From IMG/VR virus record IMGVR_UViG_3300010158_000027, positions 217,270 through 281,269 of that record: 64,000 nucleotides of DNA. One strand, 5' to 3'. The notes under the pieces are model-generated. The model was given only the letters and a program-made list of their open reading frames with translations. It ran no database searches and was not told where the DNA came from. Source of the stretch: a virus. Made by a program: the position numbers and the translations under genes. Positions 593 to 62,935 of the stretch are shown here, piece after piece (position 1 is the stretch's first letter; every line of letters starts with the position of its first letter).

Positions 593-1789
593 ATGGGATT
601 AAAAAATAACGTCAGAATGGTTTTAAGAGAGCAAGATGAGGAATGGGTGAGCGTTTCACCTGAAGAGTATATGGACTTGTTAAAGTACGTTAACGGTGAT
701 GGATCGATTATAAACCGACTACCAGACTATAAGGGTAAAAAAATTAAAATTGATGGTGATTTAAATTTAAGTTATAATGGTGACATAACAAATATTGATA
801 GTATTGATTACGTTGATGGAAATTTAGATATATCCAAAACGAATATAACTTATTTCGATAAAAATAAAGTTAAAGGTTGGTTCAGATATTATAGTAGTAG
901 AATGGAGCAAATCGAAAATAAAAAGATTTTAGATAAAAAACTTAAAGTCCTTAATGGGTATCGAGAGAATGGTGAATGGAATGTGGAAGATAATGACGAC
1001 GAGGTATCAAATGAAACGGAAGCTCTCTTTTTACATCTTATGGATATCGGATCTGTGGGTGAATATGAAAACGAAGAAGGGGAAACTGTACCTGAGGATA
1101 AATATTTTATTTGGACTGATAGTAATCATAAATATTATGAATGGCTTGGAGATGAAAATGGCGAAAGCGAATGGTTGGTGATACCGGATGATAAGATAGA
1201 TGATGTTGCTAGAGAATATCTGCAGGATAGGATTGATGAGTCAGGTTATGAAACGTTCAGATCGTATGTTTGGGAAAATAATTTAGACACAGATCGAGTT
1301 GACAAATGGTTATATGACTATTATTCGGATGATATAACAAATAATCCAGAGGAATTCGACATCCCAAAAACCCTTTCACATCAACAAAAAAACTACGTTA
1401 ATATTTATACACAAAAAATAGAAAAACTAAAAATCAGATTAAACGACGAGGAGTTAGACGAAAATCAAGTTGAAGAAATTGAAGATGAAATAACCGACAT
1501 CGAAGAAATTATTGAGGACATAAACGATTCTCCAGAGGGGGATTACGACGAGGCGGCTATTGAGGATGAAATAAATGGGCGAGTTAATGATGTTGGTTCT
1601 GATTTTTTAAGACACCTGAAGGATATGGGTTATGATGATGATTATTTTTTAGAATTCGTTGACATCGATGGTGTTATTACCGATATAATTAATGATGACG
1701 GTTATGGTAATATTTTTAATGGTTATGATGGTAGAGATGATGAATATAAGGTAAACAATAAGTGGTACCACGTAATGAGACAAAATTAA
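593..1789 (+). CDS. Acidic hypothetical protein with packaging-type N-terminus and LRR-like segment
   Basis: A 398-residue, very acidic protein. It starts MGLKNNVRMVLREQDEE, a short basic helix ending in LRE that fits the shared N-terminal peptide seen throughout the window. Residues 35-85 contain a short leucine-rich or beta-solenoid-like run (KIDGDLNLSYNGDI, VDGNLDISKTNI). The middle has an acidic coiled coil (about residues 280-310). There are no catalytic motifs I can name. It is followed after 4 bases by another gene with a packaging-type peptide. I infer a virion or late protein; function unknown. Confidence 0.75.
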   Translation: MGLKNNVRMVLREQDEEWVSVSPEEYMDLLKYVNGDGSIINRLPDYKGKKIKIDGDLNLSYNGDITNIDSIDYVDGNLDISKTNITYFDKNKVKGWFRYYSSRMEQIENKKILDKKLKVLNGYRENGEWNVEDNDDEVSNETEALFLHLMDIGSVGEYENEEGETVPEDKYFIWTDSNHKYYEWLGDENGESEWLVIPDDKIDDVAREYLQDRIDESGYETFRSYVWENNLDTDRVDKWLYDYYSDDITNNPEEFDIPKTLSHQQKNYVNIYTQKIEKLKIRLNDEELDENQVEEIEDEITDIEEIIEDINDSPEGDYDEAAIEDEINGRVNDVGSDFLRHLKDMGYDDDYFLEFVDIDGVITDIINDDGYGNIFNGYDGRDDEYKVNNKWYHVMRQN

Positions 1790-1793
1790 TTTT

Positions 1794-2222
1794 ATGAAGC
1801 AATTAATTAAAAAAATATTAAAAGAGGAATCGTTAAAGCATAATCTTAAACAACAGATTAAAGATTATGGTTGGGTAGATACTTCGCAAATGGTTAATGG
1901 ATCAAAAGAGTTGGCAAAATTGGCATTCAATAATGATCCAATGGGGTTTCTACATATGTTTGATGATTTGGATATGGTTCAGCGTAAGTTATCAGCAAAC
2001 TGGACTTTATTTAAACAAGAAAACGGAAATAATTTAATGTTGTTGGATAAAAAAATTATTTATATATCTTATGGTGATATTTGGTCATTTTTGACATATG
2101 GTTTTGGACTTAGAGATTCCCAAGTTAGGGACGTTATAAAGGTATGGTTGGGTGACGTGTACCATTTAAGGGGAATTACTATAGAGGCGGGATTTGATGA
2201 ATTATTCAGCCATATGCGTTAG
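1794..2222 (+). CDS. ILKEES-family paralog 1 (putative packaged protein)
   Basis: 142 residues starting MKQLIKKILKEESLKHNLKQ. It is the first of four paralogs in this window (others at 17422, 59554 and 60769), which share the motif order ILKEES, DYGW, MVNGSxELAKLAFNNDPM, FLHMFDD and SFL. The N-terminus is a basic amphipathic helix ending in LKE-E/S, like the cleaved capsid-targeting peptides of T4 internal proteins. It starts 4 bases after the preceding stop, so it is probably co-transcribed with it. No known domain; function unknown. Confidence 0.75.
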   Translation: MKQLIKKILKEESLKHNLKQQIKDYGWVDTSQMVNGSKELAKLAFNNDPMGFLHMFDDLDMVQRKLSANWTLFKQENGNNLMLLDKKIIYISYGDIWSFLTYGFGLRDSQVRDVIKVWLGDVYHLRGITIEAGFDELFSHMR

Positions 2223-2281
2223 TTGTGTAATTTAAAAGATTTATAATTTACACCCACAAATAGTTTTACTATAATTTATTA

Positions 2282-3028: not shown

Positions 3029-3056
3029 TAATTTAGTATCATTAAATTAAAAAATT

Positions 3057-3194
3057 ATGGAAAAAATTGATGTATTAGTTTTAGAGCAAATGATTAAAGA
3101 AATCCCCAACGATATGGATTTAGGTAGACAAATCAGAAAGATGGTTTTAAGTATTAAAAATGGGAGTACCGATATTAATAACACACCAAAATAA
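3057..3194 (+). CDS. Small hypothetical protein, 45 aa
   Basis: The frame starts MEKIDVLVLEQMIKEIPND and is preceded by the A-rich leader aaaaaatt that is typical of starts in this window. It is an amphipathic, mostly helical micro-protein. It ends 9 bases before the DUF3310 gene and is probably in the same transcript. Function unknown. Confidence 0.55.
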   Translation: MEKIDVLVLEQMIKEIPNDMDLGRQIRKMVLSIKNGSTDINNTPK

Positions 3195-3203
3195 ATAAAA
3201 GAT

Positions 3204-7163: not shown

Positions 7164-8582
7164 ATGAAGATAATTATAACTGAAAGCCAATACAAACAAC
7201 TTATCAAAGAGTCTGGAATAAGAGACATAGGTAAGATTAGAGATAGATATAAAAAAGCTAAAATATATTTCCATCAAGATTTGGATGGTGTTACAACAGC
7301 TATCGCTATGAAAGCTTATTTGGAGAATCAAGGTATCAAAGTTGTTGATGCTGAAATTATCCAATACGGAGATAAGGAATGGTCGATAAAGAAACCGGAC
7401 GCTAGTGGTGATGTAATGCCTGTATTGGTGGATTTTGCTCACGGTAAACCAATGTTTGTTATTCATACTGATCACCACGATAGCCAAGCTGGTGTTGAAT
7501 CAGGAACGTCAACAAGTTTTAAAAGTTCAAGATCAAACGTTGAAACAATTTCGCAAAGTATATCACCAAAAGAATTATTTCCGAATGATGATATTATATT
7601 AATTTCAACTGTGGATTCTGCAAACTACGCAGTTCAAAACATTAGCCCTGAACAGGTAATGTCTTACTTATTTAAATTTGATAAAGATTCATCATTAAAA
7701 AGAAATAAAATGTTAATGGGGTTAGTAACAAACAAATTGTTATTAGCATTTAAAAACAAACCAGGGTTCTTAGAAACGTTGGTATTGGATTGTACCCCAT
7801 CATTATTAAACATATTGTTAAGAATCAAACAGATTGTCCAAGAAAAAGGATATGCTGACATTCCACAATTAGAAAAGAACAAAGAAGATTATGTATCTTC
7901 AATGAAGAGTCATAAAAACGTTGAAATGGTTGGAAATATTATCAAACAATATGGAGGGGGTTCTATGTTCAAACCGGGTTCATACGACAGATATACCCCA
8001 TTCAGAAACAATCCTGAAGCTGACTTTATAGTTCTTGCTTGGCCGATGGGATTGGTACAAGCGTCTTGTAATCCATTTAAAGAAAGTAGAGCATTGAAAG
8101 GTGTTAACTTAGGTGAGATTAAAGATGAGGTATTAAGTAGATGGGAATCACAATTAAAATCGAAAGAAATCCCCTTATCAACAATTAAATGGGTGTCTGA
8201 AAGTGGTATGAATTCTGAGTCAGTTGGATTTACATTTAAAGACTTTGTTGCGTTATATGGTGAAAAATTTAAACAAATGGGTAATGGACAGAAATTACTT
8301 GATATATTAGGTAATATAATGACTAAACCATTTAAATCATTATCACCAAAACAAATAGAGTTAATGGATAAAATAACTATTAATGCTTGGGATTTGATAC
8401 AATCTAACAGTGGGGGACACAAATGTATTACAAACATTTCAGGACTTAATTATTTAGGTCGACCGTCAAGACCTGGTAAAAATGATAAAGCGGAAGGTGA
8501 GGATTCTGCATCGGTTAAGTTTACTAAGATGATACAAGATCAATTTGTTAAAGTATTACAAGATAAAATAAATAACCAATAA
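7164..8582 (+). CDS. DHH-superfamily phosphoesterase with packaging-type N-terminus
   Basis: 472 residues. Residues 1-17 are MKIIITESQYKQLIKES, the commonest form of the shared N-terminal peptide. The enzyme part then shows HQDLDG (37-42), VDFAHG (89-94) and HTDHHD (101-106), the metal-binding motifs of DHH phosphoesterases such as RecJ and nanoRNases. Manganese-dependent cleavage of short nucleic acids or cyclic dinucleotides is the usual activity; the substrate here is unknown. Its own TATTTATA box and flanking terminators make it a single-gene unit. I infer that the peptide directs it into the virion. Confidence 0.8.
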   Translation: MKIIITESQYKQLIKESGIRDIGKIRDRYKKAKIYFHQDLDGVTTAIAMKAYLENQGIKVVDAEIIQYGDKEWSIKKPDASGDVMPVLVDFAHGKPMFVIHTDHHDSQAGVESGTSTSFKSSRSNVETISQSISPKELFPNDDIILISTVDSANYAVQNISPEQVMSYLFKFDKDSSLKRNKMLMGLVTNKLLLAFKNKPGFLETLVLDCTPSLLNILLRIKQIVQEKGYADIPQLEKNKEDYVSSMKSHKNVEMVGNIIKQYGGGSMFKPGSYDRYTPFRNNPEADFIVLAWPMGLVQASCNPFKESRALKGVNLGEIKDEVLSRWESQLKSKEIPLSTIKWVSESGMNSESVGFTFKDFVALYGEKFKQMGNGQKLLDILGNIMTKPFKSLSPKQIELMDKITINAWDLIQSNSGGHKCITNISGLNYLGRPSRPGKNDKAEGEDSASVKFTKMIQDQFVKVLQDKINNQ

Positions 8583-12095: not shown

Positions 12096-12608
12096 ATGAA
12101 AAAAATAGTTAGACTAACAGAATCGGATTTAACTGATCTTATTAAAAGAATCGTTGAAGAGTCTGAAAACGATATGAAATCAACAGATGAAGATGGTGAT
12201 AATGAAATGTCCAAACAAGATGCGATAGATTTAATTGCCAAATTCCTTGATAAAAAAGTTTTACCAAAACTAGACGACGAGGAAATACGTGATTTGAAAC
12301 GAAAATCAGCACCAAAACGATCAAGAGGTATTCAAGAAGAAGAAATGGATTCTAAAAGTAGAATGTCAAACTTCAAAGAAAAAATGATGATTAGAGGTGG
12401 TTTAGGTACTGCGGCCGCTGGGGTAATCGCAACACTTAGCGAATTCACAGGTTGGTCTGAATCTGCGATGTTATCAAAAATACATTCATTTATTGAACAG
12501 GCAGGAGCTGGTAATTATGCTGGACCTATTTCAGTAGCTATGGTTGCTGCAGGATTGGCGTTAGCTCTTAAAGGTAAAGACGTACAATACAGAAGAACAA
12601 ACAAATAA
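12096..12608 (+). CDS. LTESDLT-family protein with two hydrophobic segments
   Basis: 170 residues starting MKKIVRLTESDLTDLIKRIV, the LTESDLT form of the shared N-terminal peptide, ending in VEES. The middle is highly charged (residues 25-90). The C-terminal part has two hydrophobic, Ala/Gly-rich segments (about 97-113 and 143-160), which may be membrane-active or a packed helical hairpin. No family recognised. Paralogous N-termini are at 16503 and 17903. I infer a packaged protein. Confidence 0.7.
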   Translation: MKKIVRLTESDLTDLIKRIVEESENDMKSTDEDGDNEMSKQDAIDLIAKFLDKKVLPKLDDEEIRDLKRKSAPKRSRGIQEEEMDSKSRMSNFKEKMMIRGGLGTAAAGVIATLSEFTGWSESAMLSKIHSFIEQAGAGNYAGPISVAMVAAGLALALKGKDVQYRRTNK

Positions 12609-13950: not shown

Positions 13951-14322
13951 ATGAATATTAATGAAATCATAAAAAAGGTATTGAAAGAAGAGTTTCTAAC
14001 GAATTCCTTAATATATGAGGATGAGTTTGGATCGGTCGAAGAGGTTAACATTCTAACTGAAGCGGAGTATCAAGGTAGAAATGTGAGTCTTGGTAAAGTC
14101 ATGCAGGGGGATATTAAAAAGTTTAAGGTTTATGTTAAAAACGATAAAGGAAAAGTCGTTAAGGTGAATTTTGGATTTGGTGGTAAATCTGCACATGGGA
14201 AACGAATGGTTATTAAAAAAAATAATCCTGAACGTAGAAAATCGTTTAGAGCGAGAATGAATTGTGACAGTCCAGGTCCCAGATGGAAACCTAGATATTG
14301 GAGCTGTCGGACTTGGAATTAA
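13951..14322 (+). CDS. Basic hypothetical protein with packaging-type N-terminus
   Basis: The ATG at 13951 gives 123 residues starting MNINEIIKKVLKEEF, a class C packaging-type peptide; an earlier in-frame GTG lies within the promoter box and is rejected. The C-terminal half is very basic with a small Gly-rich run (FGFGGKSAHGKRM) and a conserved-looking end (NCDSPGPRWKPRYWSCRTWN) with two Cys. This C-terminus appears often in jumbo and marine phage proteins, but I cannot name its function. It is followed 11 bases later by another peptide-bearing gene. Confidence 0.65.
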   Translation: MNINEIIKKVLKEEFLTNSLIYEDEFGSVEEVNILTEAEYQGRNVSLGKVMQGDIKKFKVYVKNDKGKVVKVNFGFGGKSAHGKRMVIKKNNPERRKSFRARMNCDSPGPRWKPRYWSCRTWN

Positions 14323-14333: not shown

Positions 14334-14633
14334 ATGGGAAAAATTATAGTAACAGAAAAACAACTAGAACGGATGGTTAGAATTCTAAAAGAAAATGATC
14401 ATGATGGTTCTTATATGGCAAAACAACAATTGTTTACCATAGCCACATTGGCATATAAGATGTGGGAAATGATGGAAGAGGGTGAGGAACTTGAAGATTG
14501 GATGGAAACCAAAATCGCTCAAGCCGAACAATCAATAACCGCAGTTGTTAAGTCTCATATGTATGATGACATTGAAGATAGAGCAAAAGGTAGTGGTGGA
14601 ATCGATCTGGATGGATTGATTATTGGTAATTAA
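14334..14633 (+). CDS. Small protein with packaging-type N-terminus
   Basis: 99 residues starting MGKIIVTEKQLERMVRILKE, ending its leader in ILKEN. The remaining 80 residues form an acidic helical domain (YKMWEMMEEGEELEDWMETK). Likely co-transcribed with 13951. Function unknown; packaging inferred from the peptide. Confidence 0.65.
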   Translation: MGKIIVTEKQLERMVRILKENDHDGSYMAKQQLFTIATLAYKMWEMMEEGEELEDWMETKIAQAEQSITAVVKSHMYDDIEDRAKGSGGIDLDGLIIGN

Positions 14634-14737: not shown

Positions 14738-14794
14738 GGTGTGAAATAATTTAATATTTTTTTAATAAAATTCTTCTTTTTGTTAAAACCAAGA

Positions 14795-14802
14795 TATTTA
14801 TA
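14795..14802 (+). promoter_or_regulatory. TATTTATA box before tnpB
   Basis: TATTTATA ends 4 bases before the tnpB ATG. The transposon gene carries or captured the phage-type box. Confidence 0.5.
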
Positions 14803-14806
14803 TAAT

Positions 14807-16502: not shown

Positions 16503-17282
16503 ATGAAAAAAATTATAAAACTTACAGAATCCGATTTAACACGTATTGTTAGACGAGTGATTAAAGAACGAGACGAACGTGACGAAGAGTGGGGACAAAC
16601 AGATAAAGGTGAAGAGAGACTACAGGATTTAATTGTTGCTGGTCGACGTTTCCTTATGTACACAGGAAATGTCGCTTCGACTTTAGATTTTGACACAGTT
16701 AACCAAATGAATGAATACGAAATAATGCGTCATGTACGTAAAAGAGGAAACGATAAGTTGGCGTCTCGTATTGAAAAGTTATTAAAACAAGAGGGGTTTG
16801 AAGATACTACTATGGGTGTTGACAAGACTTATCCGACTTTGACTTTACCTAAACATTTAGAAAACATGATCAATAATCTTGTTAGTGATAAAACCGAAGG
16901 GTTTAAAGTCAGTGAATATGATAATAAATCTATGTGGGATTTAGATTATATTATTGAGGATATTTTGGCTGCTATTGAAGAAAAAATAGGGATAACAAAG
17001 TTAAACGAATTGTCTGATGTGGTTCTTGATTATATTAACGATTTATTAGATAAATCTGACATTTATCACACAGATGGAGGTGAGTTAGAGGAGGGACACG
17101 ATGATTTTACCACTCGAAATAGATATGACGACTATAGTCAAAAAAATCATAGAAAACTCCCAAAAGGAGCTGTAAAACCAGGGAAATTTGATTTTGAAGG
17201 AACATCTTTAAAATTTAAAGGTAACGATGATGATGATTTCGATCCGTGGAGTTTGGATGATAGCGATGAGGAATACGTATAA
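16503..17282 (+). CDS. LTESDLT-family protein, 259 aa
   Basis: Starts MKKIIKLTESDLTRIVRRVI and ends the leader in KERDE, the LTESDLT form of the shared peptide. The body is acidic and helical with an Asp-rich tail (DDDDFDPWSLDDSDEEY). A middle segment (about residues 110-180) looks like a helical bundle. No enzyme motif seen. I infer a virion-packaged acidic protein, possibly DNA-mimicking at its C-terminus, with low certainty. Confidence 0.7.
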   Translation: MKKIIKLTESDLTRIVRRVIKERDERDEEWGQTDKGEERLQDLIVAGRRFLMYTGNVASTLDFDTVNQMNEYEIMRHVRKRGNDKLASRIEKLLKQEGFEDTTMGVDKTYPTLTLPKHLENMINNLVSDKTEGFKVSEYDNKSMWDLDYIIEDILAAIEEKIGITKLNELSDVVLDYINDLLDKSDIYHTDGGELEEGHDDFTTRNRYDDYSQKNHRKLPKGAVKPGKFDFEGTSLKFKGNDDDDFDPWSLDDSDEEYV

Positions 17283-17421: not shown

Positions 17422-17856
17422 ATGAAACACATTATTAAAAAAATATTAAAAGAGGAATCGTTTAAACAAAGTCTTAAACAAATGGTTAAAGAGTTTGGTT
17501 GGGAGACTACTGCAGAAATGGTTAACGGATCGGAAGAGTTGTCAAAATCCGGATTCAACAATGATCCAATGGAATTCCTACATATGTTTAATGATTTGGA
17601 TGTCGCTCAAAGTGAGATTAAACCAGATTGGTATTTAGTTAAACAAGAAAACGGAAAAAATTTAATGGCTTACAATAAAAAAAGGGGACTTCTTTACGTA
17701 GTTTATGAAAGTGTTTTGTCATTTTTAACAAAAGGGTTTAAACTTGAATACGATGAAATACTGGCACTTATAAAGAAATGGGCGGATAAGTCATACAATT
17801 TAAAGGGGTTAGAAACACATGGGGTTTACCAATATGCTATTGAGCAGTTGGGTTAA
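17422..17856 (+). CDS. ILKEES-family paralog 2
   Basis: 144 residues starting MKHIIKKILKEESFKQSLKQ. It shares motifs with paralog 1 (MVNGSEELSKSGFNNDPM, FLHMFNDLD, LSFLTKGF) and ends WADKSYNLKG, the stretch that is tandemly repeated in paralogs 3 and 4. Packaging-type N-terminus. Function unknown. Confidence 0.72.
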   Translation: MKHIIKKILKEESFKQSLKQMVKEFGWETTAEMVNGSEELSKSGFNNDPMEFLHMFNDLDVAQSEIKPDWYLVKQENGKNLMAYNKKRGLLYVVYESVLSFLTKGFKLEYDEILALIKKWADKSYNLKGLETHGVYQYAIEQLG

Positions 17857-17902: not shown

Positions 17903-18208
17903 ATGAAAAAGACAGTAAGACTAACAGAAAGCGATTTAACACGTATCGTTAAACGTGTTGTTATTGAACAAAACGAAGAGGATAGAATGGAAGGTGAAGG
18001 TATGTCCATCACAGTAGAAGATATATTTGAGGGGGTTAGAGATGCTCTTGACCAACTGGGAGGATATCGAGATTCGATGAAAACAGAAGCTATGAAATTG
18101 GCAAGAAATATTATGTCTAGTATGCAAGACGACTTGGCTTACGTTACTGAAAATTATGAGGAACAACTTTATGATATACTTGGTGAAGAAGAAGAAGATG
18201 AGTATTAA
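17903..18208 (+). CDS. LTESDLT-family protein, 101 aa
   Basis: Starts MKKTVRLTESDLTRIVKRVV, ends its leader in IEQNEE, and has a helical acidic body with a Glu-rich tail (LGEEEEDEY). Likely co-transcribed with 17422 and ended by the terminator at 18234. Third LTESDLT protein in the window; function unknown. Confidence 0.68.
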   Translation: MKKTVRLTESDLTRIVKRVVIEQNEEDRMEGEGMSITVEDIFEGVRDALDQLGGYRDSMKTEAMKLARNIMSSMQDDLAYVTENYEEQLYDILGEEEEDEY

Positions 18209-23431: not shown

Positions 23432-24040
23432 ATGGTAAATTACGTAAATATTATAATCGCATTTATAACGGGGGTATTAGGTCCAATTTTAATAGTCTAT
23501 ATTAAGAGTAAATTGGAAAAGAAAGAAAAACCAGACATGGTTAAAGAAACGTTAAGAGTTGCTGAAATGGTAACAAACAAAATCGAACATATTAAAGAGG
23601 AGTTTAAGGCGGATAGGGTTTGGATAACACAATTCCACAACGGAGGTAACTTTTATCCAACAGGTAAATCCATGGCTAAATTCTCAATCATGTACGAAAC
23701 GGTACATCCAGGTGTTGCGTCAGTTCAAAGTAATTTCCATAACATACCAGTTAATCTGTTTTCAAAATCAATTAATCGATTATTAAGTGACGATTTTATT
23801 GAAATCCCTGATTTTAAAGATGAAACGGTAGCAACATACGGATTAAAGTATATTGCTGAAGATACTGGATCTAAATCTGGATATCTATTTGCTATTAAAA
23901 CAATTGACGATAAGTTTATAGGGACACTAGGTCTTGATTTCACAAAAAGAAAAACCAAATTAGATATCGAAGCGATCAACCACCTATTGGTCCACGCAAC
24001 ATCACTCGGTGGTGTATTGATGACACACTTACAACAATGA
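23432..24040 (+). CDS. Membrane-anchored GAF-like protein
   Basis: 202 residues. N-terminal transmembrane anchor (NIIIAFITGVLGPILIVYI, about residues 5-24), a short linker, then a soluble domain with VWITQFHNGGNFYPTGKSMA and YLFAIKTIDDKFIGTLGLDF, which look like strands of a GAF-type sensory fold. No output domain is present. It overlaps the next gene by 4 bases. Role unknown; perhaps sensing at the inner membrane near lysis. Confidence 0.6.
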   Translation: MVNYVNIIIAFITGVLGPILIVYIKSKLEKKEKPDMVKETLRVAEMVTNKIEHIKEEFKADRVWITQFHNGGNFYPTGKSMAKFSIMYETVHPGVASVQSNFHNIPVNLFSKSINRLLSDDFIEIPDFKDETVATYGLKYIAEDTGSKSGYLFAIKTIDDKFIGTLGLDFTKRKTKLDIEAINHLLVHATSLGGVLMTHLQQ

Positions 24041-48424: not shown

Positions 48425-48778
48425 ATGGTACGTAAAGTTTTAATAACCGAAGAAGAAAAAAACGATATATCTGATCAATACAACGATATTGATAGATCCA
48501 TTTTAAATTTCCTTTTAAGGCGGTTAGAAAAAAAAGAAAGACAAATTGGTGAAGATCCCCCAATGAATGTTATTGAGATATCATTTAAGGGATTACCGGG
48601 TTATGGGTTCAATAATTTTCATGGTCGAAAATCGATGGAAAAAAAAGTTATCGATATGTTAACGGACAAAGAGGTGATTGATTTGGGAGAATATAATCCA
48701 AGTACTTTAGATACAAATAGACAAAAGGTTATTAAAACGATTAGACAGTTTTTAAATTTTGTAATGCCAAAAAGATAA
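48425..48778 (+). CDS. Hypothetical protein with packaging-like N-terminus
   Basis: 117 residues starting MVRKVLITEEEKNDISDQYN, a looser version of the shared ITExQ peptide. The body is basic (RRLEKKERQIGE and KKVIDMLTDKEVID). Function unknown. Confidence 0.6.
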   Translation: MVRKVLITEEEKNDISDQYNDIDRSILNFLLRRLEKKERQIGEDPPMNVIEISFKGLPGYGFNNFHGRKSMEKKVIDMLTDKEVIDLGEYNPSTLDTNRQKVIKTIRQFLNFVMPKR

Positions 48779-49565: not shown

Positions 49566-50321
49566 ATGAACAACATTAAAATATCAGAAAAAGATAAACA
49601 AATACTAAATAGGTATAACCACTTTTTAATGGCGGTTGTTGGTGAAGAAGGGATATTTACGTATGCACATGTATCTGATTATGATGGGTTAGATGGTATT
49701 GATGCGTTAAGTAGTTCAGGGGGTCATGAATTAGACACTAAAAGTGAGGGGTATAACCTATTAAATGATTTAGTTGATGGGTTTTTAAGAGAAAATAGTA
49801 ATGAATTTGTGGATTATCTTTATTGTGATGAGTGCACAGGGTATGGGTACGTTTATGTAAGGTATAATCCATTTAATAGTACCTTTAGTGTTAATTTAGA
49901 AATTGGAACTAGAGGGGGTAATACCTACGAACATGACTTCACTTTTGAAAGGTTAAAAAACCAACCACAGGGACAATGGGGAGAAAGATATGCGGAACTT
50001 AAAAAATTGGGCGATTCTAACTTCATTGAAAAAATGAAAGAAGATTATGGAAATACTTTAGAGATTTCATATGAGGGTGGTGGTGATAGTGGACAAATTA
50101 ATGACTACGGAGATACCGATCACGGAAGTGTTCATATAAATAGTGATATTGAATATGTCGGTTATGAGGTAATTGCCACCCATTATAGTGGTTGGGAAAA
50201 TAATGAAGGTGGTGATGGTAGAATAACATTTGATTTTGAAAATAAAACAGTAACATTACATCACACCGAAAATTTTGATGATTCAGAAACAGAAGATCTA
50301 GGTGAATTTAAATTAGTATAA
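49566..50321 (+). CDS. Hypothetical protein, 251 aa
   Basis: The ATG at 49566 (MNNIKISEKDKQILNRYNHF) is chosen because the TATTTATT box lies just upstream; an in-frame extension would overlap the DUF6915 gene. The protein is acidic, Gly- and aromatic-rich (YCDECTGYGYVYVRYNPFN) and looks beta-rich. Ends on the first base of the next gene's start. Confidence 0.62.
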   Translation: MNNIKISEKDKQILNRYNHFLMAVVGEEGIFTYAHVSDYDGLDGIDALSSSGGHELDTKSEGYNLLNDLVDGFLRENSNEFVDYLYCDECTGYGYVYVRYNPFNSTFSVNLEIGTRGGNTYEHDFTFERLKNQPQGQWGERYAELKKLGDSNFIEKMKEDYGNTLEISYEGGGDSGQINDYGDTDHGSVHINSDIEYVGYEVIATHYSGWENNEGGDGRITFDFENKTVTLHHTENFDDSETEDLGEFKLV

Positions 50322-51202
50322 TGGAAAATTTAAACGAAAATATTAGTAGAATTAAAACCCTGATGTTGGTTGAAGAGGACGAACAACAGGGATCATTATT
50401 TGCCAACAGGGGTACACCCATCAGTATAAATTCAAACGATTTTGTGGTAGCATTTAAAGAAAAGGTATACTTTATTTTAAAGGATTTATACAAATCAAAT
50501 TGGGATAGTGATAGTAGTAGAGGGCCTGGAGGTCGTGGTGGAGGAGTTGTTGGTATACATACTGTATATGATTTGTTAAATAAAAAAGGATTAACTGATT
50601 ACGACCCTGAAGGTGGTGATTGGTCGATACTAAACTATTTTGATACCAACCCACAAGTTAGAAAAACTATTGTTGGTGAGTACGAAAAAGAGACAGGAAA
50701 TATAATGGATAACACTGAAGTAATGAAGGAATTTATTACGTGGATGTCAAAAAATAGAAATAAATTATTTAAAAATGGGCCAATATTTGATAGTCTAATT
50801 TTAAAAAATACGCAATCACTTTATCAAGGTGAGTTAAACGAAAGAACAGCGTACGACTACTTAACCAACGCATTGAAGAAACTTAAAAATTGGAAATTAA
50901 AGGGTAGATCAATTCCTGGATCTAAAACAGATAGAGGTGGTATTGATTTTGTTATGGTTAATGAAATAAACGGAAAAGAGGCGAAGTTCCAAGTCAAACC
51001 ATTAACTAGTTTAAAAAGAGTAGGAAATTTTTATAAAATAATGAGTTATAATATACGGGAAATAGATAAAAAACCTGTAGATTATTTGGTTTTCGCATCT
51101 AGCGACACTGAAAAAGTTTACATTTTTAAAAATACGACAAGTAGATATACTATTTTAGATAAAGACAACATCCAATTTGAGGATGCACCAATAGCGTTTT
51201 AA
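50321..51202 (+). CDS. PD-(D/E)XK nuclease-like protein with packaging-type N-terminus
   Basis: 293 residues. The N-terminus MENLNENISRIKTLMLVEED resembles the shared peptide (LMLVE-E). In the C-terminal half GELNERTAYDYL, GGIDFVMVNE and KEAKFQVKPLT provide the E, D and QxK of a restriction-endonuclease-like core. Near the start RGPGGRGGGVVG is a flexible basic loop. Nuclease function is inferred from the motif order; no cognate methyltransferase is adjacent. Confidence 0.6.
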   Translation: MENLNENISRIKTLMLVEEDEQQGSLFANRGTPISINSNDFVVAFKEKVYFILKDLYKSNWDSDSSRGPGGRGGGVVGIHTVYDLLNKKGLTDYDPEGGDWSILNYFDTNPQVRKTIVGEYEKETGNIMDNTEVMKEFITWMSKNRNKLFKNGPIFDSLILKNTQSLYQGELNERTAYDYLTNALKKLKNWKLKGRSIPGSKTDRGGIDFVMVNEINGKEAKFQVKPLTSLKRVGNFYKIMSYNIREIDKKPVDYLVFASSDTEKVYIFKNTTSRYTILDKDNIQFEDAPIAF

Positions 51203-52299: not shown

Positions 52300-53331
52300 A
52301 TGGAGAATATATATTACACAATTGCTGAACAAAAAATGGAAAAACTAAGTCACGTTTTAAACGAGATAGAGGGTGAAGATTTAAAAAGACTTATGTCAAG
52401 GGAACTTCAAAAAATTAAATTGATTCCTTTAGATATGTTTAGCTCTAAAGATGCGATAAGTAACATTATAAGTGCTGAAATATCAAGAAAAACTATAGAG
52501 TTTAATAGGACTATTCCGTCTTTAATGTCCTTAAATCTTACACAAGTAAGTACGAGATCTAAATTTAGATTTGATAATTACTATAAAAGATTTTACACAT
52601 CAAGAAATAGAGGATTTGATTTTGAGGGGATGATAGCAGGATTTTTAAATGGAGATATATCAACAGATAAATCATCACCATTCGATATCACCGCTGGTGG
52701 AAATAAAATATCATTAAAAACTTTAAAAAATGAAGGGGAGTCTGTTGTTGTTAAATCTATCGCTAACAGCTTAAAAAAGTATTATGAGTCTTATAACGGA
52801 TCACCTGAAAACAAAGCCGAACTTAGAACTATATTCTCATCAACAAACCCAATAAAATTTTTAGTTGATTCTAAAAACAACGATTTAGTAAATATTGCTG
52901 AGGACGTTATTAGAATGTCTTTAGAGGGTATCGACTCATTATTAATTGGAATACCAAAAGAGGATAATAAAATTGATTTATATTATTTTAGTAAAGAAAA
53001 AGTGGTACAATTGGCAGCTAATCGTGGATCGGCAATGGCACCTAAAAGTTCTGGATCAAAACAATTAAGATTATCATCCAATATTTTAAGTGAAGCTGAC
53101 ATGACTGGAACAATAACTTTTCCCAATTTAACGGATAAAGATTATGAAGACTTTCTTGTTGGTGATGAAACAACAACCAAGACAATACAAACACTAAATA
53201 GTTTTGGTAGTAAATACGGAGTAAGAGGATTGGGTGGACAATTACCCCAAGACATTATTATGGATTTGGCTAAAAGTGACCAATTCATTACCGACATGAA
53301 CTTTATTCTCGGAAATCAAAAAGAGGAATGA
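52300..53331 (+). CDS. PD-(D/E)XK nuclease-like protein 2
   Basis: 343 residues starting MENIYYTIAEQKMEKLSHVL, with the leader end LNEIEGE like the shared peptide. RGFDFEGMIAGFL, SPFDITAGG and KISLKTLK give E, D and SxK in the order of a restriction-endonuclease-like fold. The rest is helical. A target-cutting role, perhaps against host DNA, is inferred. The stop overlaps the next gene (ATGA). Confidence 0.6.
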   Translation: MENIYYTIAEQKMEKLSHVLNEIEGEDLKRLMSRELQKIKLIPLDMFSSKDAISNIISAEISRKTIEFNRTIPSLMSLNLTQVSTRSKFRFDNYYKRFYTSRNRGFDFEGMIAGFLNGDISTDKSSPFDITAGGNKISLKTLKNEGESVVVKSIANSLKKYYESYNGSPENKAELRTIFSSTNPIKFLVDSKNNDLVNIAEDVIRMSLEGIDSLLIGIPKEDNKIDLYYFSKEKVVQLAANRGSAMAPKSSGSKQLRLSSNILSEADMTGTITFPNLTDKDYEDFLVGDETTTKTIQTLNSFGSKYGVRGLGGQLPQDIIMDLAKSDQFITDMNFILGNQKEE

Positions 53332-53564
53332 ATATTATAGTTACAAAAGAACAGTTAAACATATTAAGAGAAAACAATCCAAAAGAGTTTAATTGTGATA
53401 AGTGCGACCATACTTGGACAATAAACCCAGAAGATAATGATCCGTATTTTTGTCATATATGTGGTTATGACACCCACAAAAAAAAGTGTGACTATGACAA
53501 ACTCGAAGACTTTTGGAAAAATCACAAAAAAGACGACATCGTAAAGGAAAACAAAATTAAATAA
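53328..53564 (+). CDS. Zinc-ribbon protein with packaging-type N-terminus
   Basis: 78 residues: MNIIVTKEQLNILREN is the shared peptide, then a zinc ribbon FNCDKCDHTW ... FCHICGYD (two CxxC pairs about 20 residues apart) and a charged tail. It may be a packaged nucleic-acid- or protein-binding factor. Coupled to 52300. Confidence 0.72.
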   Translation: MNIIVTKEQLNILRENNPKEFNCDKCDHTWTINPEDNDPYFCHICGYDTHKKKCDYDKLEDFWKNHKKDDIVKENKIK

Positions 53565-55233: not shown

Positions 55234-55803
55234 ATGAATATAATAATAACTGAAGCCCAATATAACTCATTAACGGAGGAAAATCTTAGAGAGTTTTTAT
55301 ATTCTCTTTGGAATAACCAAAAAAAACATGGGGAAGAACCAACTTTTGATGAAATCATTTATCAGGTTAGCGATATTAGAAAAGACAGTAACGAAGATTA
55401 TGAAATTATACGACCGATATGGTATGACTATAACGGGGGATATGATAAGTTACTCCAAGAAATAAAAGATGTGGTAGAGCATGATGAAATACAAATAAAA
55501 GGTGAAAGTAATCTTGATATTATTATTTTTGTAACTGAGGTAATCTCTTATGGTGTAAAATACGAAGCAGGGATAATTGAAATTAACTGTAAAGTTGTTG
55601 GTGGTAAAGTTGATGGTTATGTTTATCATGACGAAACGGGTGAACAGACTTTGGTACCAAACATGGACATATTTGAGATGTTTAGAGAATTAGAATACGA
55701 TACGGAGTATTTCGAAGAGTTTATAAAATCGGAGTGTTACGACTACATGTATGAAAGACTAAAACATTTTGGTGTACCAATAGGTGTAAATCTCGAATTT
55801 TAA
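55234..55803 (+). CDS. Packaging-peptide protein, tandem family member 1
   Basis: 189 residues from the ATG at 55234: MNIIITEAQYNSLTEEN then an acidic domain. WYDYNGGYDKLLQEI and the C-terminal part resemble the next gene (GEFLGGWDKMIEKT), so the two are distant paralogs. First of four consecutive genes with the same N-terminal peptide. Confidence 0.7.
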   Translation: MNIIITEAQYNSLTEENLREFLYSLWNNQKKHGEEPTFDEIIYQVSDIRKDSNEDYEIIRPIWYDYNGGYDKLLQEIKDVVEHDEIQIKGESNLDIIIFVTEVISYGVKYEAGIIEINCKVVGGKVDGYVYHDETGEQTLVPNMDIFEMFRELEYDTEYFEEFIKSECYDYMYERLKHFGVPIGVNLEF

Positions 55804-55805
55804 TT

Positions 55806-56372
55806 ATGAAAATAATAATAACAGAAACGCAATACCATAAATTGATGGAATCTTTTTCAGATGAAGAGGAGAAAGCAAAACGTGCGTTGTTTAAAATTTG
55901 GCAAAGCGAACTTGATAGTGGTGAGGAAATTGAATTAGACCCCAAGGTGTTAGACTACATTAACTACACCCCAACAAGTTGGAAAGATATTTACACACTA
56001 TATGGTGAGTTTCTTGGTGGTTGGGATAAGATGATTGAAAAAACCCACCAACTAATGGATGATAAAACTTTCGACACTATGGATTATGATGGTAGAGGTG
56101 GTTATGATTTTAGATTTAAGGTTACTAGTTGGGCTTATACAGAAAAAGAACATAATGTAATACACGTTAACTACATGATAGAACGTGACGGTGAAGTAAC
56201 CTTAATGACTGATGGGAAAACACATACATTAAAAGATGTCAGTAATGATAAAGATTTATGGTGGGAAGTCGAAAGTGAAATGATATCTATATTTGATGAG
56301 ATTATGTTTGAGGATATCACAAAAAAGACGGGAATAATTGTGTATGGTGAAAATTTTTGGATAGAAGAATGA
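55806..56372 (+). CDS. Packaging-peptide protein, tandem family member 2
   Basis: 188 residues: MKIIITETQYHKLMES then an acidic domain with FLGGWDKMIEKT, KVTSWAYTEKEHNVIHVNYM and a Glu-rich end. Follows member 1 by 2 bases; overlaps member 3 by 4 bases. Confidence 0.7.
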   Translation: MKIIITETQYHKLMESFSDEEEKAKRALFKIWQSELDSGEEIELDPKVLDYINYTPTSWKDIYTLYGEFLGGWDKMIEKTHQLMDDKTFDTMDYDGRGGYDFRFKVTSWAYTEKEHNVIHVNYMIERDGEVTLMTDGKTHTLKDVSNDKDLWWEVESEMISIFDEIMFEDITKKTGIIVYGENFWIEE

Positions 56373-56767
56373 GAATAATAATAACGGAGAATCAATATAA
56401 AATGTTATTGGAATCAAATACTGAATCCATGCAAAATGTTATTGATATGGCTTTTGAATCATTAAAGGAAAAATGTGAAGAGGGGGAGGATTTTGATGTG
56501 ACGTATATTGAATCCCAACTTAATGTGACTGAAGAAATAAAAGTCGTTGATGTTCAGAAAACGACAGCAAAAAACTACTTAACAGGTAAAGAAAGTAGTC
56601 TTTTGTTTGTTACTGTTGACATATACATTCACTCAATTTATGAATCAATAGATGCTGATGAAATGATACATGAATTAAGATTAGAGTGTGAAGAAATAGT
56701 CGGTAAAGGTAACATTAGATTAAAGGTGAGAGATGTTATAAATAATAACACAAATAGACAGTGGTAA
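56369..56767 (+). CDS. Packaging-peptide protein, tandem family member 3
   Basis: 132 residues from the ATG at 56369 overlapping the previous stop (ATGA): MRIIITENQYKMLLES. The remainder has beta strands (LLFVTVDIYIHSIYE) and an acidic helix. Function unknown. Confidence 0.68.
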   Translation: MRIIITENQYKMLLESNTESMQNVIDMAFESLKEKCEEGEDFDVTYIESQLNVTEEIKVVDVQKTTAKNYLTGKESSLLFVTVDIYIHSIYESIDADEMIHELRLECEEIVGKGNIRLKVRDVINNNTNRQW

Positions 56768-56770: not shown

Positions 56771-57382
56771 ATGAAAATAATAGTAACGGAGGACCAGTTT
56801 AAATTACTCCAAGAAAACGATAATGATTTTATTAAAACTAAATCCGTTATAGTCTCTATGTATGATCAAGGAATGTCCATTTACGACATTAAAAATTATA
56901 CTGGGTTGGATTATGATGTTATCATTCTATGTCTAAAGGATAAAAAAATAATAAGTGGGGGTGATTGTGAAGAGATTTATGATTTATTATACCATTATCT
57001 TTATCGTACTGAGTTTATTATTAAAGATTACAAATATAGTGATGGGTCAACAATTACGATTGACATGGATGGTAACGCCACTGCAGAGTTTGAGTATACG
57101 GCTGCCGATGGTGACCAAGTATATGGTTATGGTACATTTTTATGGGATGGTGGTTGTGATTGGCCCTTAGATGCCGATTATTTTAAGTCTGGATATGATA
57201 GAATAGATGATCCTAAATTTTATGGTAACATTGATTGGTCGTTATATAATGATGAATTTATAAAAATAGAAACGATGGATGATATAATTAATTTTTTTAA
57301 TAATCATTATTTTGAATTAATAAAAAGTCCGATAGATAAGTTAATTGATGAGTATAGGGCGGATTTACTTGAAATGGACTAA
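56771..57382 (+). CDS. Packaging-peptide protein, tandem family member 4
   Basis: 203 residues: MKIIVTEDQFKLLQEND, then a helix-turn-helix-like segment (MYDQGMSIYDIKNYTGLDYD) followed by an Asp/Tyr-rich beta part. The HTH-like piece resembles Mor/homeodomain-like DNA binding but is short. Last gene of the four-gene run. Confidence 0.68.
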   Translation: MKIIVTEDQFKLLQENDNDFIKTKSVIVSMYDQGMSIYDIKNYTGLDYDVIILCLKDKKIISGGDCEEIYDLLYHYLYRTEFIIKDYKYSDGSTITIDMDGNATAEFEYTAADGDQVYGYGTFLWDGGCDWPLDADYFKSGYDRIDDPKFYGNIDWSLYNDEFIKIETMDDIINFFNNHYFELIKSPIDKLIDEYRADLLEMD

Positions 57383-59553: not shown

Positions 59554-60066
59554 ATGAAAGAACTGATTAGGAACATATTAAAAGAGGAATCATTAAAGCA
59601 AAGTCTTAGACAGCAAGTTAAAGATTATGGTTGGAAAGATACCGCAGAAATGGTTAATGGATCAGAAGAGTTGGCAAAATTGGCGTTCAATAATGATCCA
59701 ATGGAATTTTTACACATGTTTGATGATATGGATTTTGTTCAGTCAAAAATTGAAAAAGACTGGACATTATTTAGATTTGAAAAAGGGCATAATCTGATGA
59801 TTTACGATAGAAAAGATGAGTATGTTTACATAGATTATTCTGACATTTGGTCATTTTTGGAAGATGGTTTCGAACTTAACTACTCTGAGACGCAGGAACT
59901 TACAACAAGATGGTTGGAAGAAGTATACAAATTAAGGGGAGTCACAACACATAGATGGGGCAAGACTAATGAATTCTTGGTGGATGAAGCATACAAATTA
60001 AGGGGAGTCACAACTCCAAACAGGTTATTCTTATCTATAAACCGGTGGATGAAGCATACAATTTAA
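59554..60066 (+). CDS. ILKEES-family paralog 3 with repeated C-terminus
   Basis: 170 residues starting MKELIRNILKEESLKQSLRQ. Shares MVNGSEELAKLAFNNDPM and FLHMFDDMDFVQ with its paralogs. The C-terminus carries duplicated units (EVYKLRGVTT, DEAYKLRGVTT, then a frame-shifted third copy in RWMKHTI), each about 66-69 bases. The last unit runs into the next gene start, suggesting recombination between gene ends. Confidence 0.74.
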   Translation: MKELIRNILKEESLKQSLRQQVKDYGWKDTAEMVNGSEELAKLAFNNDPMEFLHMFDDMDFVQSKIEKDWTLFRFEKGHNLMIYDRKDEYVYIDYSDIWSFLEDGFELNYSETQELTTRWLEEVYKLRGVTTHRWGKTNEFLVDEAYKLRGVTTPNRLFLSINRWMKHTI

Positions 60067-60073: not shown

Positions 60074-60718
60074 ATGAAACAGTTAATTAAACAAATATTA
60101 TTACAAGAGGTAAATAAGAAATACTCTAAACCAACACCAAGTGTGGAAAAACTAATCTATAATTGGTTGGATAACTATATTTCAGGAGCGCAGATGTATC
60201 ACGAAAAACACTATGAGTTTAATTATGGTTTTGAATGGTGTAATGATGGTATGGAAATAATGAGTTTTGATTTAGCGTTTGAATATATTGATGAATACCA
60301 TAGTAATAGAGTAAAAAATAGTGAAAGGAATTTTGATAGGGGAACTTTACAGATGCCTAAAGACATAATCCAAGAAATGCTTACGGACATTCCTGTAAGA
60401 AAAAACTATTTAATATATGTTATTGAGGAGTGGTTCGAGGACACACTATTAGATAAGGTTTCAACTATGATTGGAAGAGACGATATTTCAATTGATGAGT
60501 TTGAGGAATATCCAGAAACGGCACTAGTTTGCGTTCCACCACAAACAAAACCTGAAGGGTTAACTGATGATCAAATGATCGACTATATTGTTTCAAATAC
60601 TTTGCATAGAAAGGAACATTTAGAAAGGAGTATGTTGGAAGATCCTGATTTTGATTTAGAAAAATTGTATTTAGATATACTGAAGATGGGTGAGAGTAAA
60701 AGATTAAGAGGACAATAA
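60074..60718 (+). CDS. Packaging-peptide protein, 214 aa
   Basis: Starts MKQLIKQILLQEVNKKYSKP, class C peptide with ILLQE-V as end. The body is acidic and helical (YNWLDNYISGAQMYHEKHYE). No motif recognised. It starts 7 bases after paralog 3. Confidence 0.66.
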   Translation: MKQLIKQILLQEVNKKYSKPTPSVEKLIYNWLDNYISGAQMYHEKHYEFNYGFEWCNDGMEIMSFDLAFEYIDEYHSNRVKNSERNFDRGTLQMPKDIIQEMLTDIPVRKNYLIYVIEEWFEDTLLDKVSTMIGRDDISIDEFEEYPETALVCVPPQTKPEGLTDDQMIDYIVSNTLHRKEHLERSMLEDPDFDLEKLYLDILKMGESKRLRGQ

Positions 60719-60753
60719 CAGATTGGAAACGTCCACATTTTAATTTTATGGGA

Positions 60754-60761
60754 TATTTATA
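60754..60761 (+). promoter_or_regulatory. TATTTATA box before 60769
   Basis: TATTTATA ends 7 bases before the ATG at 60769. Confidence 0.5.
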
Positions 60762-60768
60762 ATGATAT

Positions 60769-61293
60769 ATGAAACAGTTAATTAAACAAATACTAAAAGA
60801 GGAATCGTTAAAGCATAATCTTAAACAACAGATTAAGGATTATGGATGGAGAGATACCGCAGAAATGGTTAATGGATCAAAAGAGTTGGCAAAATTAGCA
60901 TTCGATAATGATCCGATGGAATTCCTACATATGTTTGATGATATGGATGTTGTTCAGAGCGAATCTGACATAAATTGGACTTTATTTAGATATGAAAAAA
61001 GAAATAATCTAATGGTTCACAATAAAAAAAATAAATATGTTTACATAGATTATTCTGACATTTGGTTATTTTTGAAAGAAGGTTTTGGACTTAAACACTC
61101 TGACATACAGGCATTTACAACGAGATGGGTGGATGAATCATACAATTTAAAGGGAGTCACAACTGACTCGTCGTTTAAAATCTTTATTATCGAGGTGGAT
61201 GAATCATACAATTTAAAGGGAGTCACAACCAAACGAGGGATAAGCAGGGACGCAATCATGGTGGATGAAGCATACAATTTAAGAAAGAAATGA
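60769..61293 (+). CDS. ILKEES-family paralog 4 with repeated C-terminus
   Basis: 174 residues starting MKQLIKQILKEESLKHNLKQ. Closest to paralog 1 at the N-terminus. The C-terminus has three units: VDESYNLKGVTT, VDESYNLKGVTT and VDEAYNLRKK, with 34 bases almost identical at about 61127-61161 and 61195-61228. The stop overlaps the next ATG (ATGA). Confidence 0.75.
   Translation: MKQLIKQILKEESLKHNLKQQIKDYGWRDTAEMVNGSKELAKLAFDNDPMEFLHMFDDMDVVQSESDINWTLFRYEKRNNLMVHNKKNKYVYIDYSDIWLFLKEGFGLKHSDIQAFTTRWVDESYNLKGVTTDSSFKIFIIEVDESYNLKGVTTKRGISRDAIMVDEAYNLRKK
61127..61282 (+). repeat. C-terminal tandem repeat of paralog 4
   Basis: Three copies of GTGGATGAATCATACAATTT or close variants at about 61127, 61195 and 61260, spaced 65-68 bases. 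The same unit ends paralog 3 (about 59921, 59981, 60044). Confidence 0.72.
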
Positions 61294-61763
61294 AACAGTT
61301 AATTAAACAAATATTAAAAGAGGAAACTGAAGATGATCGCGTTAGAGTATCCAAAGGTATCAATGCGTTGGTTAGTTTAGTGAAGAACACTTTTCCATTT
61401 ATTGTTGGTTGGGTTTGGGCCAAAGAGGATTGGGATGAGGGTATGTTTGGGATATATATACACTTAGTTATTGATCAAAAAAAAGTTAAAGAGATTTATG
61501 GTTTAAATTATAGATCATGGTATGATGGTAAACATAGTGTACTACAAAAGGCAATCAACGATAAATCGACATATGCGTACCCCATTAGTTTATTGGATTA
61601 CGAATCGGAAGGTATTGATGCTTATGAGGAAAATAGGGCAATTAAAGATTTAGTTAACGATACGTATGAGATTATACCTGATGAGTATAAAGTGGAAGTA
61701 AATAAACCATACTTTTATCAAGAAGCCAAAACTCTTGAAATTGACAGTTATATTTTTGTTTAA
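61290..61763 (+). CDS. Packaging-peptide protein, 157 aa
   Basis: Starts MKQLIKQILKEETEDDRVRV, class C peptide. The body is alpha/beta with VGWVWAKEDWDEGMFGIYIH. Overlaps both neighbours by a base or a codon, so translation is coupled. Function unknown. Confidence 0.68.
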   Translation: MKQLIKQILKEETEDDRVRVSKGINALVSLVKNTFPFIVGWVWAKEDWDEGMFGIYIHLVIDQKKVKEIYGLNYRSWYDGKHSVLQKAINDKSTYAYPISLLDYESEGIDAYEENRAIKDLVNDTYEIIPDEYKVEVNKPYFYQEAKTLEIDSYIFV

Positions 61764-62935
61764 TGAAAAATCTGATACGACATATATTAAAGGAAGAAAC
61801 TAATAACGTTAAGTTAGTTAAGGATATTGTACTTGCTATGTTTGATAATGTTAAGTTTGTAGAATATGTTCCCGAAAGAAATGAGATTATGGTTTTTTAT
61901 ACTAATCGTGATAACCGACAAATGTTGATACCCACCGAAGTATGTGATAAGATTAGTCAATACACTGGTTTAGATGTAGTTCCTTGGCATATAGGTAGAG
62001 AATCCGATAATCAACCTGATTTTTATATAGATACTGAGGAGTATGAGGAACCCCCTAATGAAAAGAATCTAAGGGCTATTAAAACAATATTGCCCCAAGT
62101 TAGTTGGGATGGGCTTTGTGATATATGGGTGGAGTACTGTGAAGAAGATGACGATTACGAAATTAGATCTAAATCAATCAAAAGACATTATCTTTCAGAC
62201 GATACTGACATAATAGATGAGTTATTTTCTTTAAAAAACATTTTAAAATCTATGGGGTTAAAGGTGGGGGTTTTTGCTCCAATACCGGTTGATAGTTGCG
62301 AAGATGATGTGGAGTCTATTAATGAAGATAAAGAAACACCAAATGAAATAGAAAAGAATCTACGAGCCATTAGAACGGTATTGTCACAAGTTAGTTGGGA
62401 TGGTTTATGTGATATATGGGTAGAATATAGCAAGACGGATGGGGAATATGAAATTCGATCTAAATATGTGGGAGAATCGTTTACCATTGAGGATAGTAAA
62501 GATTTAGATTTTTTAGAAAACGCAATACGATCAATGGGTTTAAGTGTTTATATATACACGCCATGGTTTGTTGATAGTTGTGAAGATGATGTGAAGTTCA
62601 TTAACGAGTCTAAAGAAAACTCAACAAAAGAACTCATTTATAGGGTTTTAAATGACTTGGTATTACCACAATACGATCACGTTATTTGTGGGTTTGAATT
62701 ACATAATGTCGATGATAAATATTTAGACAATGATCTTAATTATCCAGGAGTTGATGTTACATTTATTGGTGGTAAAGGTACAAAACTATATCCACAAACA
62801 TCAGGCATTCAAAAAATGTATGATGATGTATTGGGTGAGATTTGGGACACAGTGTACGATTACACGGGTATTTCACTTGAACTATATTCAAAATACGTTA
62901 AAGATTGCGGAAAAGAAAACATCTACTTAAGGTAA
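61763..62935 (+). CDS. Packaging-peptide protein with internal duplication, 390 aa
   Basis: Starts MKNLIRHILKEETNNVKLVK. Residues about 95-185 and 195-285 are two copies of one domain, each with EKNLRAIxTxLxQVSWDGLC, DIWVEY and a closing PVDSCEDDV or FVDSCEDDV. A third, different domain ends the protein. The duplication is also clear in the DNA. Function unknown. Confidence 0.7.
   Translation: MKNLIRHILKEETNNVKLVKDIVLAMFDNVKFVEYVPERNEIMVFYTNRDNRQMLIPTEVCDKISQYTGLDVVPWHIGRESDNQPDFYIDTEEYEEPPNEKNLRAIKTILPQVSWDGLCDIWVEYCEEDDDYEIRSKSIKRHYLSDDTDIIDELFSLKNILKSMGLKVGVFAPIPVDSCEDDVESINEDKETPNEIEKNLRAIRTVLSQVSWDGLCDIWVEYSKTDGEYEIRSKYVGESFTIEDSKDLDFLENAIRSMGLSVYIYTPWFVDSCEDDVKFINESKENSTKELIYRVLNDLVLPQYDHVICGFELHNVDDKYLDNDLNYPGVDVTFIGGKGTKLYPQTSGIQKMYDDVLGEIWDTVYDYTGISLELYSKYVKDCGKENIYLR

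Follow-up and report, generated by a model that had tools for sequence, protein, structure and literature searches.

Exchangeable N-terminal tags ending at a predicted prohead protease site on many unrelated proteins of an uncultured T4-like phage

We analyzed a 64,000-nucleotide stretch (hereafter the window; 32% GC) of the virus record IMGVR_UViG_3300010158_000027, a T4-like phage genome of 281,269 bases in which the window takes up record positions 217270-281269. The initial annotation of the window had proposed that many of its proteins share a short N-terminal peptide resembling a phage capsid-targeting sequence (CTS). Such a peptide (tag), common to otherwise unrelated proteins, was found on 35 proteins of the record, and these fall into 31 cargo families. 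The tags end in a conserved motif of the type cut by the T4 prohead protease gp21, one class of tag can take the place of another on the same cargo in different phages, and the record encodes a gp21-like protease next to T4-type head genes. We consider it likely (probability about 0.83) that the tags are propeptides that serve head loading and are removed by the prohead protease, and we regard the system as a greatly expanded variant of the known capsid-targeting system of T4.

Tag sequences and their conserved end

Tags were searched for in the window, in the rest of the record, which was covered in stretches with every start scanned, and in a collection of 2.9 million viral contigs. Coordinates refer to the window unless marked as record positions or given within a locus (L). 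The 26 tagged starts listed for the window are all genuine open reading frame (ORF) starts at their coordinate and strand (26/26); for the genes at 55234, 56369 and 13951 the longest ORF opens further upstream at TTG or GTG, and the tag starts at the ATG used here. A profile-like check of all starts in the full record, as had been suggested, showed that the same tags recur beyond the window, at record positions 142, 1523, 2973, 5682, 6160, 14150, 58376, 84174 and 189793. Most tags lie within 15 kb of the start of the record or within its last 63 kb, and isolated ones are found at record positions 58376, 84174 and 189793; the whole-record counts are 13 for class A, 7-8 for class B and 9 for class C. 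Among the 1,722 ATG N-termini of the record, 13, 7 and 9 matched classes A, B and C, respectively; the total of 29 compares with ∼0.1 expected (>100-fold) when residues 2-30 were shuffled in 300 rounds (means 0.03, 0.04, and 0.02; maxima 1-2). The class A peptide pattern occurs in at least 119 stretches of the viral collection and a scrambled version with the same residues in none, and reversed-pattern controls gave no match in 16 large records. Class B tags had no match in 84,980 prokaryote genomes. A literature text search for the tag strings LTESDLT and MKIIITE found no occurrence, and a tblastn search of named phage records with the tag peptides found no match, which with such short queries is weak evidence. 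The proteins had been described as unrelated after the peptide; the number of cargo families bears this out in the main, the exceptions being two groups of paralogs (1794, 17422, 59554, and 60769; 55234 and 55806).

By means of DNA patterns over approximately the first 13 codons we collected 363 distinct tagged proteins from other viral contigs. The earlier proposal that the tags end in a gp21 site of the (L/I)xE type was supported in three classes. The class B pattern left residues 14-22 unconstrained; of the 118 class B proteins collected in this way, 116 have E at residue 22 and all have I, L, V, or M at residue 20. Between these two, residue 21 varies (N, K, S, R, L, or M) and is most often N (40/118), which gives the ending 'INE', and information is at background from residue 24. 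In class A the motif [LIVM]xE ends at residue 14-16 in 86 of 118 proteins, compared with 4.9% of internal 5-mers, and in class D it is present in 39 of 46 distinct proteins, compared with 13% of internal 9-mers. An unguided alignment of 107 tagged proteins with unrelated cargo left M1, K2, and E22 as the only columns conserved at ≥90%. Tag lengths range from 11 to 22 residues, and the P3 position is L, I, or V. The 55234 protein, from the largest tagged cargo family, was modelled by AlphaFold2 (22-sequence alignment) with a mean predicted local distance difference test score (pLDDT) of 88.5; the tag is predicted to be disordered, with nearly all of residues 1-11 at pLDDT <50, and the predicted cut coincides with residue 15, where the first long helix starts. 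A Foldseek search with this model against the PDB found no significant match. The model of the DHH family is poor (mean pLDDT 68.6) and has low confidence at residues 13-19, which surround the predicted cut.

Tag exchange and the head genes of the phage

After tag removal the strict tagged set comprises 167 cargo families. An unsupervised search for over-represented N-termini added class D (MNLQEQISRIQSMMGVINE/..., the slash before the dots marking the predicted cut here and below) and class E (MKKFLITEEEKSRILGMH...), which brings the tag classes to five (A-E) and explains the weak tag variants at 50321 and 48425. Under relaxed definitions the five classes cover 407 cargo families, 127 of them multi-member, and 27 of these 127 bear different classes in different phages. 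This count is based on longer alignments and excludes the GH24 entry: a GH24 family with three tag classes was dropped, as nothing but a LysM-like stretch links its B- and C-tagged members to the GH24 protein. The junctions were judged by eye from the sequences. In swapped cargoes similarity often picks up directly at E, and several junctions coincide with the predicted cut. Thus ...KFLIE/NQEVVDRILDKIS in L321 (class A) corresponds to ...NRVINE/NQEEVDRILDKIS in L149 (class B), and ...LQKE/GLHDTSWENDEGDK in L207 (class A) to ...GVINE/GLHDTSWENDEGDK in L391 (class D). Relatives of the 593 protein have a class C tag (VLNE/QDEEWVDVSPE) or a class B tag (IIKE/TEDEYYRISPE), with similarity resuming past E. 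One contig (L267) carries A-tagged and C-tagged copies of the same cargo, and in L356 a C tag precedes an apparent A-tag remnant. Five weak variants had been listed among the tags of the window; relatives of those at 593 and 48425 bear tags of class C, B, or E, that at 50321 belongs to class D, and support was lacking for 24037 and 52300.

The initial annotation had made its proposal depend chiefly on a prohead protease in the full genome, and the record does encode one. It is a gp21-like Peptidase_S77 protein (E-value 6.9e-24, passing the curated cut-off; also phrog_207, 1.7e-43) whose gene, at L002:9583-10293, is close to that of the gp23-like capsid protein (phrog_138, 5e-66). The record further encodes a terminase and a gp20-like portal (phrog_213, 3e-60). 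Between the protease and capsid genes, at L002:10666-12153, lies a 495-amino-acid (aa) gene without a family match, in the place of the T4 scaffold gene gp22; by its position it is scaffold-like and would complete a T4-type head. T4 gp21 cuts off the first 65 residues of gp23 at the site FLTE/A (PMC5694885). In the capsid protein of the record and 80 relatives, L57, I58, N59, and E60 are found in 81/81 and A61 in 80/81 sequences, and conservation drops afterwards; I-N-E at residues 58-60 aligns with LTE/A of T4 gp23, and Flavobacterium phage vB_FspM_immuto (immuto) has IVSE/A. The reading of a modular tag that ends at a protease site is supported by cut residues that are conserved where the search left them unconstrained, by the class swaps, and by the capsid IxE followed by A. 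Of the tag-bearing contigs of ≥100 kb, 31/44 have S77. With the presence of gp23 as a control for S77 absence, all 30 gp23-containing tag contigs have S77, and the 13 contigs without S77 also lack gp23; these are probably fragments without the head module.

Among the named matches listed, the nearest relatives of the capsid protein come from an uncultured huge phage (LR756508), Microcystis phage Mel-JY01, Flavobacterium phage immuto, and Rhodothermus phage RM378. The record encodes signal peptides with the ending ...SQ (e.g., L002:15896 and L003:1184), which together with the kinship to immuto suggests a Bacteroidota host. Two further features of the head genes were observed. The portal gene at L002:4957-7734 (record 64957-67734) has an intein-like insertion: the portal match spans only residues 412-806, residues ∼38-362 match HNH endonucleases, and the insert, which starts with CIAGETKI and ends with FSHN before T, is absent from the immuto portal. 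A 268,739-base IMG/VR contig (G021, the source of locus L238) has two Peptidase_S77 and two gp23 genes, at 31-35 kb and 233-238 kb, which reflects either two head modules or a chimeric assembly.

Function of the tags and alternative explanations

From these observations we infer the following route. The tag, with an amphipathic stretch at its end, would bind the scaffold core during prohead formation, and the bound cargo would be enclosed as the shell closes. The phage's own gp21-type protease would then cut after (L/I/V)xE, so that the cargo is freed and the tag removed. The cargo would remain with the packaged DNA, enter the next host with it and act at the start of infection, as cell-wall enzymes, nucleotide or phosphoesterase-like enzymes, and probable counter-defence proteins. 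Separate classes may bind different core proteins and thereby set copy number or position. Most cargoes are somewhat more likely to be injected effectors than assembly helpers. We give slightly better than even odds to the wider proposal of a widespread uncultured jumbo T4-like lineage in which at least five interchangeable classes load at least 30 effectors per virion, and in which a tag scan reveals hundreds of pre-packaged families that act before phage gene expression.

Several results weigh against the interpretation of the tags as cleaved propeptides on effectors. In class A, 32/118 proteins are without [LIVM]xE at residues 14-16. Class C provides no independent evidence for a cut site because KEE was part of its search pattern, and the cut could fall at either KE/E or KEE/S. 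Ranking 248 T4 proteins by a profile of the record tags yielded only weak enrichment of the ten processed head proteins (area under the curve 0.61, p 0.11); the idea that the tag itself resembles the T4 CTS (MKTYQEFIAE type) was accordingly dropped, as no likeness extends beyond the cut site. Shared ancestry is a confounder of the association between tags and S77. In most cargoes no domain can be recognised, so that 'effector' is a putative label.

The alternative that survives best also has the tags bring proteins into the prohead core and undergo cleavage by the protease, and takes most cargoes for helpers in structure or core assembly that end up degraded or retained in the particle. The T4 protease also fragments the core proteins gp22, gp67, and gp68 (PMC5694885), one tagged gene (L003:3713-4174) lies among structural-looking genes, one relative (L015) is near a capsid gene, and one tagged protein matches the PHROG 'minor head protein'. 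However, the 407 families under relaxed definitions amount to a high cargo diversity, the cargoes include enzymes (GH24, M23, DHH-like, and 2H/Acb1-like), and most tagged genes of the record lie outside the head module. We therefore regard a predominance of helpers as unlikely.

Other targeting routes can also make use of amphipathic helices at the N-terminus. Since the tags look amphipathic, they might address proteins elsewhere (membrane, replication compartment, or tail), with (L/I)xE as a coincidental helix cap. Against this stand the end of class B conservation right past E, the end motif shared by differently spaced classes, and the same motif being invariant at the maturation site of the capsid protein; a free P2 with fixed P3 and P1 is the pattern of a protease site, not of a helix cap. 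A different address is thus improbable.

The shared N-termini could also be a recombination or expression cassette (5' gene end, promoter, and ribosome site) copied before many genes without any address function. Shared upstream sequence does exist: TATTTAT, mostly 10-25 nt upstream of the ATG, precedes 50% of tagged genes compared with 26% of other genes in the record and its relatives. It also precedes 89% of the protease and 94% of the scaffold-like genes, 0/6 thymidylate synthase genes, and 1/67 capsid genes, a distribution that hints at a possible shared late promoter of the phage group. Neither the complementary motif ATAAATA nor the T4 late-promoter consensus TATAAATA was enriched upstream of tagged genes. 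A copied cassette is nevertheless very improbable. When class B sequences are compared in pairs, nucleotide differences over codons 14-22 amount to 0.27, 0.17, and 0.47 at the first, second, and third codon position, compared with ∼0.7 at all three positions over codons 26-38, and this third-position excess points to selection on the peptide and not on a DNA or RNA element; moreover, dissimilar classes converge on one end motif and substitute for each other on the same cargo. Finally, a chance likeness of short K/I-rich starts in an AT-rich genome, where a GC content of 32% favours K, I, and N codons, is refuted by the shuffled, scrambled, and reversed controls.

If the tags are indeed head-loading propeptides, one phage carries the tag on ∼10 times the number of T4 internal proteins, with hundreds of families in related contigs. 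An N-terminal scan would then serve as an address book of injected phage proteins beyond the reach of naming by homology, the tagged proteins would include candidates for new counter-defence functions, cut positions would be predicted for them, and several ready-made tags might be used for loading proteins into phage heads.

Tagged proteins of the window and comparison with known systems

The tagged genes lie on the plus strand except for one. Class A tags, read from the N-terminus, begin with that of the DHH-like protein at 7164..8582 (MKIIITESQYKQLIKE/SG, cut after residue 16; 472 aa). It had been called a DHH phosphoesterase; a DHH-like Pfam match is present and is weak, and a homolog in L356 bears a class C tag instead. 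The protein at 14334..14633 (MGKIIVTEKQLERMVRILKE/ND, 99 aa) was met again in the record scan, and that at 33756..34889 on the minus strand (MKIVITEEQYKGILIE/ST, 377 aa) was placed by cargo clustering as well. The GH24 lysozyme at 37219..38040 (MKIIITESQFKLINE/AI) was confirmed by Pfam, with the match starting at residue 42, and an untagged homolog (L448) starts just ahead of the lysozyme domain. An untagged lysin-like gene is present at 21413, and its likely immuto counterpart is an annotated chitinase beside a holin; the tagged lysozyme therefore need not be the lysis enzyme. The next gene, at 38050..39291 (MAKIIITEKQMDLMVTQLLSE/AV, 413 aa), has an HExxH motif at residue 152, and the small protein at 53328..53564 (MNIIVTKEQLNILRE/NN) has the two CxxC motifs of the proposed zinc ribbon. 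The modelled protein at 55234..55803 (MNIIITEAQYNSLTE/EN) is followed by its paralog at 55806..56372 (MKIIITETQYHKLME/SF) and by two proteins that were likewise clustered by cargo, at 56369..56767 (MRIIITENQYKMLLE/SN, 132 aa) and 56771..57382 (MKIIVTEDQFKLLQE/ND, 203 aa).

Class B tags, each recovered from the N-terminus in the record scan, are found at 12096..12608 (MKKIVRLTESDLTDLIKRIVEE/SE, 170 aa), 16503..17282 (MKKIIKLTESDLTRIVRRVIKE/RD, 259 aa), and 17903..18208 (MKKTVRLTESDLTRIVKRVVIE/QN, 101 aa). Four class C proteins are paralogs by cargo clustering: 1794..2222 (MKQLIKKILKE/ES, 142 aa), 17422..17856 (MKHIIKKILKE/ES), 59554..60066 (MKELIRNILKE/ES), and 60769..61293 (MKQLIKQILKE/ES). 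The N-terminus and cargo clustering also placed in this class the proteins at 60074..60718 (MKQLIKQILLQE/VN, 214 aa), 61290..61763 (MKQLIKQILKE/ET, 157 aa), and 61763..62935 (MKNLIRHILKE/ET, 390 aa). A looser class C tag at 13951..14322 (MNINEIIKKVLKE/EF) has homologs with class A or B tags. Homolog comparison likewise bears on the weak variant at 593..1789 (MGLKNNVRMVLRE/QDEEW), which has a class C-tagged homolog in L272 and a class B-tagged one in L421. The class E-like variant at 48425..48778 (MVRKVLITE/EEK) sits in a cargo family that is otherwise class C-tagged, and the class D tag at 50321..51202 (MENLNENISRIKTLMLVE/ED) has relatives in L252, L329, and L311. The weak variant at 24037..24693 (MRQVLIEQLVKRIKQTLVTE/RK, 218 aa) was called from its N-terminus and its HExxH motif, which is present at residue 115, and that at 52300..53331 (MENIYYTIAEQKMEKLSHVLNE/IE, 343 aa) from its N-terminus.

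Pfam and PHROGs name few cargoes in the record: the GH24 lysozyme, the weak DHH-like protein, and a DUF6576 protein; the PD-(D/E)XK-like proteins of the initial annotation received no support from Pfam. Cargoes of the relatives include peptidoglycan-binding, M23 peptidase, cell-wall hydrolase, AAA_33/zeta-toxin-like, and endonuclease families. A class C-tagged protein at L385:12064-12606 (minus strand; also in L401 and L354) is 2H phosphoesterase-like. Its score against Acb1, which counters the cyclic-oligonucleotide-based antiphage signaling system (CBASS), is 20.1 bits, below the 27-bit cut-off; a pre-packaged anti-CBASS enzyme would be notable, if true. Elsewhere in the window, the start of the ORF at 14780-16015 (MKVINKSYKVRIYPNKEQKVLLEKHFGCIRFVYNHF) resembles that of a TnpB-type protein, and the ORFs at 6276-7127 and 53612-54424 each contain TSPPY, a typical DNA methyltransferase motif, close to the start.

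Among known systems, phiKZ-like giant phages (SPN3US and phiKZ) also package many proteins and remove N-terminal propeptides by a prohead protease, at a site that ends in E and leaves the middle residue free. Their propeptides, however, are mostly >100 residues long with AxE/SxE cuts (PMC5694885), and neither feature was found in the tags described here, which have 11-22 residues, end in (L/I)xE, and accompany a T4-type head. Phage P1 has the head-associated defence-against-restriction proteins DarA and Hdf; the available text of the sources (PMC12810830, PMC9024508) does not describe short tags that form an exchangeable family and are carried by dozens of different cargoes. The closest isolate among the matches listed is immuto (MW353175.1; L093 and L094), with a 42% identical capsid protein, an annotated prohead protease, and repeated short N-termini ending in LxE/IxE. 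Its tags, three of the MENFDLKKFLVEN...ILKE type and two of the MKKQILSEQF(R/K)RMQ(K/F)LAGIITE type, are fewer and different, and its genome is smaller (160 kb); as a cultured phage it offers a testable isolate.

The same tag layout has been proven experimentally in T4 (PMC9026906, PMC12373910). The N-terminal 10 residues of IPIII are enough for packaging, mapping has identified the residues for targeting and for the cut, and the internal proteins are injected (PMC9026906). IPI, IPII, and IPIII share the leader only and block different type IV restriction enzymes; it took decades until these three proteins were tied to restriction-enzyme inhibition, and at least 10 internal proteins are known from T4-related phages (PMC12373910). 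The T4 CTS system (IPI, IPII, IPIII, and Alt with gp21) and the system described here both place a short propeptide with an (L/I)xE end on unrelated proteins, and both combine a Peptidase_S77 protease and a gp23/gp20-type head with a polymorphic cargo set. All features of the T4 system that can be followed in sequence were found except similarity of the tag sequences, and we therefore class the system as a variant of it. What is new is the number of tagged proteins (∼30-35 in this genome compared with a handful in T4), the tag sequences, which differ from that of T4 and form at least five exchangeable classes, the phage group (uncultured phages with probable Bacteroidota hosts), and a cargo that is mostly unrecognised and has lysozyme, DHH-like, and 2H/Acb1-like members.

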